From NCBI RefSeq assembly GCF_005144585.1, contig NZ_SSMQ01000020.1, forward strand, positions 1 through 64,000: a DNA stretch of 64,000 bases, written 5' to 3'. The notes beneath the pieces are model-generated. The model saw nothing but the letters and a program-made list of their open reading frames with translations, made no database searches and was not told the DNA's origin. Position numbers and translations under genes: made by a program. Below are positions 713-59,968 of this stretch, in pieces (position 1 is the first letter of the stretch; each line of letters starts with the position of its first letter). This DNA is from Polyangium fumosum (lineage in GTDB: Bacteria; Myxococcota_A; Polyangia; Polyangiales; Polyangiaceae).

Positions 713-717
713 GGGCG

Positions 718-1062
718 TAGCGCCGGGGCGCTGCCCCGGACCCCGCGGGGGCTGTCCGCCCCTCGACCCGGACCAGGCACGGCCTGGACCGAAGGTGGAA
801 GAACTGCGCTCCGCGCAGTTCTTCCAACGGGCCCGTGGCAAGACCATGGAGGTGCGTCTTAAGCTGGCGACGTGTGCGTTGCCAGTTGAACCCGCAGCGC
901 TGCTGCCTTGGTTGGCAAGGTCGTTGAGGGTCTTGACTGGCGGCTGTTCGATGAACTGCGCACCGCGCAGTTCATCGACCCCGGGTCCAGCGCCTCGCTG
1001 GTCCGGGTCCAGGGGCGGACAGCCCCGGTGGGGTCTGGGGCAAAGCCCCAGCTCCGCGCCTC
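718..1062. repeat. Palindrome-ended intergenic repeat, full copy A
   Basis: About 345 bp between the FGE-like gene and the SGNH hydrolase gene. The outer blocks (718-790 and about 977-1062) are imperfect inverted copies of each other; both contain GGGGCTGTCCGCCCCT-like and CCGGACCAG-like segments. Just inside each lies a perfect hairpin with a 13-bp stem and 3-nt loop: 797-825 (arm GGAAGAACTGCGC) and 949-977 (arm CGATGAACTGCGC). The roughly 120-bp core is shared with the copy at 59571-59915. There is no transposase, so the element resembles a non-autonomous, MITE-like repeat. Mobility is inferred from structure only. Confidence 0.75.
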
Positions 1063-32720: not shown

Positions 32721-32827
32721 TGCATCGACCGCATCGCGGTCGATGCACCAAAGGTCCAGGGCTGGCCCTGGTCCGGGTCGAGGGGCGGACAGCCCCTCGT
32801 GGGGTCCGGGGTAAAACCCCGGCGCTC
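32721..32827. repeat. Half copy (C) of the intergenic repeat
   Basis: The stem TGCATCGACCGC/GCGGTCGATGCA (32721-32747, loop ATC) is followed by a block (32753-32825) that matches the right end of the full copies at 718-1062 and 59571-59915, including CCGGGTC, GGGGCGGACAGCCCC, GGGTCCGGGGT and ACCCCGGCGCT. Only one arm is present, and its inner hairpin has a different sequence. It lies 67 bp after tRNA-Val(CAC). Confidence 0.7.
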
Positions 32828-32849
32828 ACGCTGCAAAGCGAGCCTCCGC

Positions 32850-59007: not shown

Positions 59008-59511
59008 GTGACTCCCAAAGTCGGCGTACCTTCCTGGATCGTGGGACGTTTTCGCCTTGGGATCATGTTCGTGCCGCTCCTCGTGGGCTGCGCAGGGGGC
59101 AGTGGGCAGGCCGTGGAAGGGCCAGCGACGGGCGCGGCGATCGAGGCGGACAAACCCGCCGAGCCCGAGCTCGTGGGCGTGAAGAAGAAGCTTCAGGGGA
59201 CGTGGGAGATCGTGCGGTACACGTCGGATCACCCGATCCCGAACGAGGCGATGCCGCTCATGGCGGACCTGTTCGAGTCGCTGCGCATCGGGTTCGACAA
59301 GGATGCGCAGAGCGTGCGGACCTCGAAGACGCCCGACGAAAGCGCGCCGTATCAGGTGGATGGCGAGTCCGGCGACGCCTTCACGCTTCGAGCGAGCGGA
59401 GGCATGTTCGACGGCGCGAAATGCCGGTTTCTCGGCGCGGACGAGTGGGAAGTCACAGATCGCGGCAAGACCTGGCCCGGCGTCAGCGTCCTCCGTCGCG
59501 CAGCCCGCTGA
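59008..59511 (+). CDS. Small lipoprotein of unknown function
   Basis: This 167-residue protein has lipobox LVGC (C at 28). The mature part has a short spacer, then a beta-rich domain (55-165) with LQGTWEIVRYTSDHPIPNEA, GMFDGAKCRFLGADEWEVTD. LQGTW at the start of a small beta domain recalls lipocalin-like lipoproteins. The GTG at 59008 is followed by a long n-region; a GTG at 59041 gives a shorter signal. It overlaps nothing and ends just before the repeat at 59571. Confidence 0.65.
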   Translation: MTPKVGVPSWIVGRFRLGIMFVPLLVGCAGGSGQAVEGPATGAAIEADKPAEPELVGVKKKLQGTWEIVRYTSDHPIPNEAMPLMADLFESLRIGFDKDAQSVRTSKTPDESAPYQVDGESGDAFTLRASGGMFDGAKCRFLGADEWEVTDRGKTWPGVSVLRRAAR

Positions 59512-59570: not shown

Positions 59571-59915
59571 CCTGCGCGGGGCTCTGCCCCGCACCCCGGA
59601 AGGGGGCTGTCCGCCCCCTTCACCCCGGACCAGGCACGGCCTGGACCGAGGTTGGAAGAACTGCGCTCCGCGCAGTTCTTCCAACGGGCCCGTGGAAAGA
59701 CCATGAAGGTGCGTCTCGATCTGGCGACGGGGCCGTTGCCGGTTGAGCCGTCAGCGCTGCCGTCTCGATGGGCAAGGTCGCCTGTGGTCTTGACCCTGGC
59801 TGTTCGATGAGCTGCGCGGAGCGCAGTTCATCGACCCTGTGTCCAGCGCTTGCGCTGGTTCGGGTCCAGGGGTGAACAACCCCTGGTCGGGTCCGGGGTG
59901 AAACCCCGGCGCTAC
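59571..59915. repeat. Palindrome-ended intergenic repeat, full copy B
   Basis: It fills most of the 457 bp between the lipoprotein and AraC genes. It has the same order of parts as the copy at 718-1062: outer inverted blocks (59574-59650 and 59833-59915), hairpin 59654-59682 (identical to 797-825 over all 29 nt) and a second hairpin 59805-59833. The core is about 80 percent identical by eye. It lies in the same orientation. No transposase and no clear target duplication were seen. Confidence 0.75.
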
Positions 59916-59968
59916 GTTGTACTGGGAGGAGGGGGGCCGGGGGAAAACCCGGGTCGAGCCGACTTGGC

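Follow-up and report, generated by a model that had tools for sequence, protein, structure and literature searches.

A high-copy palindromic repeat at gene 3' ends in Polyangium, probably of the REP/BIME kind

Polyangium genomes carry a long compound palindromic repeat that lies directly behind stop codons and is present at some sites in one genome and absent from the same sites in another. We consider that this is probably a palindromic repeat of the REP/BIME kind, non-autonomous and present in high copy number, made of units in which an outer block is joined to a long hairpin. The best reading is a new REP/BIME-like family that is compound, unusually long, untagged and RAYT-less. The analysis started from a window, the whole 64-kb stretch of Polyangium fumosum DNA under study, and was extended to the rest of that genome (G000; 12.98 Mb, 201 contigs) and to five Polyangium congeners (G148, G149, G150, G151 and G152).

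Results

Architecture of the repeat

An earlier note on this DNA, made from the sequence alone, had reported two full copies with the order outer block, hairpin, core, hairpin and inverted outer block, together with one half copy. Both full copies are real, and their arms and perfect hairpins could be placed in the window as listed here, the limits of copy 1 (about 714-1060) being set by conservation across copies.

714..1060, + strand: copy 1, whole element, ~345 nt, in a convergent gap between reading frames that end at 712 (+) and 1079 (-)
723..790, + strand: left outer block of copy 1, with H3 (723-739), H2 (748-762) and H1 (770-790)
796..826, + strand: long perfect hairpin A of copy 1, with a 14-bp stem and a 3-nt loop
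827..947, + strand: variable core of copy 1; median pairwise identity among copies 0.73
948..978, + strand: long perfect hairpin B of copy 1
984..1051, + strand: right outer block of copy 1, inverted, with H1' (984-1004), H2' (1012-1026) and H3' (1035-1051)
32722..32831, - strand: solo unit (the 'half'), with the hairpin GCATCGACCGC-NNN-GCGGTCGATGC (32722-32746) and the outer block H1-H2-H3 (32754-32831)
about 59571..59920, + strand: copy 2, whole element, in a convergent gap between reading frames that end at 59511 (+) and 59969 (-)
59651..59685, + strand: perfect hairpin A of copy 2

The full element has eight local hairpins and follows the order H3, H2, H1, hairpin A, variable core, hairpin B, H1', H2', H3'. 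The outer blocks had been described as inverted copies of each other, and the inverted arms of copy 1 (714-845 and 929-1060, 132 nt each) are indeed 77% complementary; copy 2 matches copy 1 at 84% identity over 328 nt. Both copies had also been placed in gaps beside gene ends, and in both cases the gap is a convergent one.

The sequence of the half copy is likewise real, but it is a smaller unit in its own right rather than merely a broken copy: its outer block is that of the full element but stands beside another long perfect hairpin, the exact motif of which matches 5-44 times per genus genome (control 0). The family is built from a unit that joins three short hairpins, the outer block, to one long perfect hairpin, and the full element consists of two such units, inverted, flanking a variable core. 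There are also composites, 17 copies of 391-434 nt to which one more block and a third long hairpin, of the GCATCGACTGCGC type, are added (e.g. L107:6005-6407 and L128:1370-1803), of which 16 come from Polyangium sp. 6x1 and one from y55x31, shares that reflect the collection of these loci by the hairpin A pattern and are not genome-wide counts. A single block in another genus of the taxonomic family (L036:161-270) keeps the H3-H2-H1-long-hairpin order with a different sequence.

Copy number and taxonomic distribution

The exact core motif of the long hairpin, GAACTGCGCNNNGCGCAGTTC, of which a full element can hold up to two, was counted 248 times in the genome of the window and 177, 183, 431, 480 and 37 times in the five congeners (the first three counts belonging to G148, G149 and G150, respectively), and its reversed control not once in any of the six. 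When the whole genome of the window was searched with copy 1, there were 353 first-look candidates; the 40 that were scored were all full or near-full, and were 84-91% identical to copy 1, besides copy 1 itself (100%). In addition, 20 stretches of 20 kb, set at fixed positions on contigs already known to bear copies, contained five element places. The dispersed family suspected in the earlier note therefore amounts to dozens to hundreds of copies per Polyangium genome.

Within the genomes searched, the family is confined to the genus Polyangium. With three candidates scored per genome, a search of 183 genomes of the order gave full-length matches in six, all of them Polyangium, and the other 177 gave eight matches of 33-55 nt only, in seven genomes. 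A covariance model of the outer block returned the same six genomes and one weak single match in another genus, the block at L036:161-270, in a search with strict filters and 24 candidates scored per genome that weaker relatives may escape. For the exact hairpin pattern in named genomes, all the matches listed came from Polyangium sp. 15x6, 6x1 or y55x31. A search of the 64-kb window against Rfam 15 at gathering score gave only two tRNAs, the repeat matching no RNA family, and no description of a Polyangium hairpin repeat was found in the open-licence literature with the terms searched. The statement that no named family matches thus holds for the sequence, but the kind is a known one, that of the REP/BIME palindromes described at 3' gene ends (PMC3733652).

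Position relative to genes

We classified the neighbours of 120 copies (136 full copies minus eight without flanks and minus duplicates), using gene calls from a codon-usage score trained on the window rather than an annotation pipeline: 76 copies were convergent, 30 tandem, four divergent and 10 unclear. The background, 253 neighbour pairs in the 20 stretches of 20 kb, divides into 43 convergent, 168 tandem and 42 divergent. The distance from stop codon to element has a median of 12 nt (middle half 4-20 nt; 191 gene 3' sides), and in tandem gaps the element lies 11 nt from the stop side and 75 nt from the start side. Convergent gaps free of the element are also short (median 10 nt, n=46), so that tight spacing alone is no proof of function.

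On the chromosome of G148, where the origin was placed by dnaA (11.65 Mb), the GC skew of 20 stretches being too noisy, all 59 strict full copies lie within 2.3-10.0 Mb (Rayleigh p ~2e-14). The stretches of ~3.9 and 1.65 Mb that flank dnaA have none of them; a lone hairpin motif stands at 1.31 Mb. Of these elements 34 are in plus and 25 in minus orientation, with no rule seen.

Presence and absence at shared sites

A synteny block round the window was compared across five genus genomes. For 13 of its element sites both sides could be located in one or more of the other genomes, further copies of the block being omitted, and 11 of these sites have an occupied allele in one genome and an empty one in another. 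The polymorphic sites comprise four full elements, one of which is partial in one genome, and seven solo units. The site of copy 2 is occupied in all five block genomes and in the sixth genus genome, and the remaining site is occupied in three genomes and unresolved in one. Where the window has copy 1, G149 has an empty site, G148 two copies, and G151 one copy in opposite orientation. Outside the block, a clean empty site for a full copy on contig C7 of G000 was seen in Polyangium sp. 6x1 (L028 / L133), the one clean case among three candidates. The repeat had been called mobile-looking, a description with which this presence/absence between relatives agrees. The pattern probably includes gain, and loss could account for part of it. 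At the site of the window's half, G150 carries a tandem expansion of hairpin-plus-spacer units (G150:C77:43022-43360).

Conservation of the local hairpins and the case for a structured RNA

Compared with dinucleotide shuffles, the folding of the two window copies has z values of -14.5 and -8.95, and for each copy none of 100 shuffles was as good. Across 50 diverse copies, 96.4% of the cells of the local hairpins are standard pairs, and both partners have changed in 27 of 67 local pairs; such cells number 122, compared with 25 in shuffles, and none of 500 shuffles reached the observed count. They are not independent events, since copies share changes through descent. In slid versions of the local hairpins, pairing drops to 31-47%. 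Between the two long arms, examined in 50 diverse copies, the covariation of pairs stays at the level of shuffles, and an arm-to-arm cruciform was rejected as a conserved structure on this ground, though single sequences fold in that way. Since the local stems covary and the arm-to-arm pairing does not exceed shuffles, the conserved objects are the eight local hairpins, not one giant cruciform.

The long hairpins are nearly perfect. The 57 copies obtained without the hairpin pattern should have 114 long hairpins and do have 111, the threshold for a hairpin being 9 or more of 13 pairs formed round GCGC-NNN-GCGC, and nine of 1221 inner pairs are non-Watson-Crick; in all 120 copies the latter number is 11 of 2596. 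The variable cores differ between copies by a median of 27%, and the proposal that structure is kept while the core diverges is supported by covarying local stems and near-perfect hairpins alike. Pair changes on one side are absent from helices 1, 2, 4, 8 and 9, and some occur in helices 3, 5 and 6. The three-base loops of the 120 copies (including those of 796-826 and 948-978) are drawn from a small set, with GAT/ATC, TCC/GGA and GGT/ACC predominating. Loop inversion is unneeded as an explanation of the reverse-complement triplets, since these mostly separate by hairpin A versus hairpin B.

The earlier note had offered a structured RNA as an alternative to a mobile element. As a bidirectional terminator or an mRNA 3' stabiliser, the repeat would be selected on the RNA of both convergent genes, a possibility that we regard as real though rather unlikely. 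It would suit elements that stand directly behind stop codons, with convergent neighbours for 76 of the 110 classified copies, and that have a stable fold and covarying stems. Set against it are the empty alleles found in a congener at 11 of 13 mappable sites, the element-free convergent gaps that are themselves tight, the helices that have no one-sided changes (1, 2, 4, 8 and 9, with some in 3, 5 and 6), and the 11 non-Watson-Crick cells of all copies, of which five are G-T. Furthermore, neither window copy contains a T-tailed intrinsic terminator (a hairpin followed by a T-run), although other terminator types would still be compatible. Covariation of the stems, as predicted for an RNA, is there, but with half-changed pairs rare and most mappable sites having an empty allele, the data fit DNA palindromes at least as well. 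Copying between stem arms by template switch can yield both-sided stem changes without selection (described in PMC8794818 and PMC8604942).

Inheritance and exchange at shared sites

Copies at the same site are in some cases flipped, diverged or fitted with other hairpins. Copy 2 is 79.7% identical to its counterpart in G148, where the flanks are 96% identical, and its site has a different hairpin A in each of the six genomes. Among 13 other same-site pairs, five are in opposite orientation and the loops of most differ as whole triplets. In a set of 13 same-site pairs the mean identity is 0.826, with seven above and six below the all-pair mean of their genomes (0.805-0.841). In two of 17 comparisons the same-site counterpart outscored all other copies of the second genome; four of the 17 share copy 2, the score counts gaps, and the copy sets are partial and in part biased, most G000 copies having been fetched by similarity to copy 1 and most G150 and G151 copies by exact hairpin A. 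Of the five shared sites compared between G000 and G148, the closest pair of genomes, four are 97.7, 94.7, about 90 and 87.7% identical, against 90-97% for the flanks, so that plain inheritance suffices there.

Together these comparisons suggest inheritance over short times and, over longer times, exchange between copies, which we infer to be the cause of the differences at shared sites. A second insertion at the same site may be an alternative to rewriting, the two being indistinguishable from these data. We dropped one further candidate sign of concerted evolution, the genome-specific length classes (medians 348/349 versus 316/319), because most G000 copies had been fetched with a 345-nt query and G000 stretches chosen by position include several copies of 300-322 nt.

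Exchange could be carried further, to a hairpin array that renews itself. Breaks or replication stalls provoked by the long perfect palindromes would be repaired from other family members, with the inverted outer blocks as points of contact that permit both orientations, and copies at fixed sites would in this way be rewritten, flipped and given new hairpins. The population would then persist and evolve without a dedicated transposase, and the same process at gene-end palindromes would seed new sites. We hold this to be unlikely, the more so as plain inheritance seems to explain four of the five sites that the two closest genomes have in common.

Junctions, split elements and the search for a mobilising enzyme

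The mobile form named in the earlier note was a MITE, in the classical sense an element with terminal inverted repeats that depends for its movement on a transposase encoded by a different element. The repeat is like a MITE in being short, non-coding and polymorphic among relatives at shared sites, with inverted terminal blocks of ~130 nt. It differs in that no target-site duplication, or any other direct repeat at the ends, exceeded control in 118 copies and 2592 frames (best z 3.2), and in that no parent transposon was found; junctions at empty sites are ragged, and several carry extra bases. Nor did the loci examined contain a transposase bounded by element ends or an autonomous partner (three opened of the nine distinct arrangements, or 11 rows, of split elements). 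In the strict sense the MITE claim is thus not supported, and we judge this explanation quite improbable.

In one split arrangement a gene lies between two half elements, and presumably encodes a protein with a HAD-like motif. At L123:4635-5637 the core is replaced by 733 nt with a 137-aa reading frame that has no Pfam match, possibly a captured gene. In L210:12325-13823 (G148:C1 ~8.042 Mb) a Tn5-like IS (Pfam Tnp_DNA_bind, DDE_Tnp_1 and Dimer_Tnp_Tn5) sits in hairpin H1, with GGCACGGCC on both sides; REPs are described as IS targets in PMC1525189.

Mobilisation by a RAYT, a Y1 tyrosine transposase, as for REP and REPIN elements, would agree with the palindromic units, inverted pairs and 3'-end location, which are those described for REPs (PMC3733652). 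However, matches to PF01797 (Y1) occur in three of the six genus genomes, and G148, G149 and G150 have none despite their 177, 183 and 431 motif copies. The one match in the genome of the window, which we take to be a short IS200-like frame and which is the one of the four matches with its locus inspected, lies in a 3.4-kb locus free of the element. Neither GTAG nor CGTC stands directly at the hairpin foot in any of 239 ends (CGTC is one base away in two); within 10 nt of the foot, CGTC occurs in 43 and GTAG in 21. A RAYT partner is unsupported by these results, and we give the RAYT-driven explanation little credence.

Finally, two similar copies within one 64-kb window of a 201-contig draft could recall a recent segmental duplication or an assembly artefact, the former named as a possible cause in the earlier note, but the chance of either is negligible and both were rejected, since the flanks of aligned copies are unrelated and copies occur in six genomes, one of which has a 13.24-Mb single-contig chromosome.

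Discussion

A covariance search of the genome and its relatives had been proposed for this repeat, and many copies, stem covariation and empty sites in congeners were all found. The probable REP/BIME-kind identity rests on a comparison with the GTAG and CGTC super-families (PMC3733652), with which the Polyangium repeat shares high-copy dispersed extragenic palindromes, inverted pairs and mosaics, and a preference for 3' gene ends and convergent gaps. REPs are described there as lying mostly between convergent and unidirectional genes, with most of the convergent ones less than 20 bp from both 3' ends in two diagrammed genomes. However, a REP unit is one hairpin of 20-40 nt (PMC3733652), whereas the Polyangium unit has four hairpins and about 110 nt, and forms 300-430-nt compounds with a variable core. 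As the GTAG/CGTC tag at the hairpin foot and the RAYT link are both missing, we call the family REP-like rather than a member of the REPs.

REPINs, two inverted REP units acting as one, are tied to RAYTs and are much shorter than the Polyangium element. They too form repeat populations inside one genome, but for the Polyangium repeat no RAYT link was found. The maintenance of hairpins by template switch (as described in PMC8794818 and PMC8604942) likewise gives both-sided stem changes and perfect hairpins without long-lived intermediates; unlike there, loops and stems of the Polyangium repeat also change as whole units between shared sites, where loop triplets often differ entirely.

Under the REP/BIME-like reading that we prefer, copies would come and go at gene 3' ends, mostly in tight convergent gaps, where an insert may do least harm and where a string of hairpins could also end or protect both transcripts, a putative effect that we regard as plausible. 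At the DNA level, copying between stem arms would keep the stems free of mismatches, and exchange between copies may contribute to this at some sites. The outer blocks would supply the homology for such exchange, and their inverted layout would make rewriting possible in both orientations of a copy.

The spread of palindromes that lack a transposase of their own, as in the CGTC super-family, is left open in PMC3733652, the main text of which contains no occurrence of Sorangium, Haliangium, Deltaproteobacteria or Myxococc-. Our analysis brings a compound REP/BIME-like repeat to Polyangium, for which we found no earlier report in the literature searched. The six related genomes, whose shared sites carry filled, empty, flipped or changed alleles, provide a natural test set for whether palindromes spread and renew themselves by recombination and replication errors alone.
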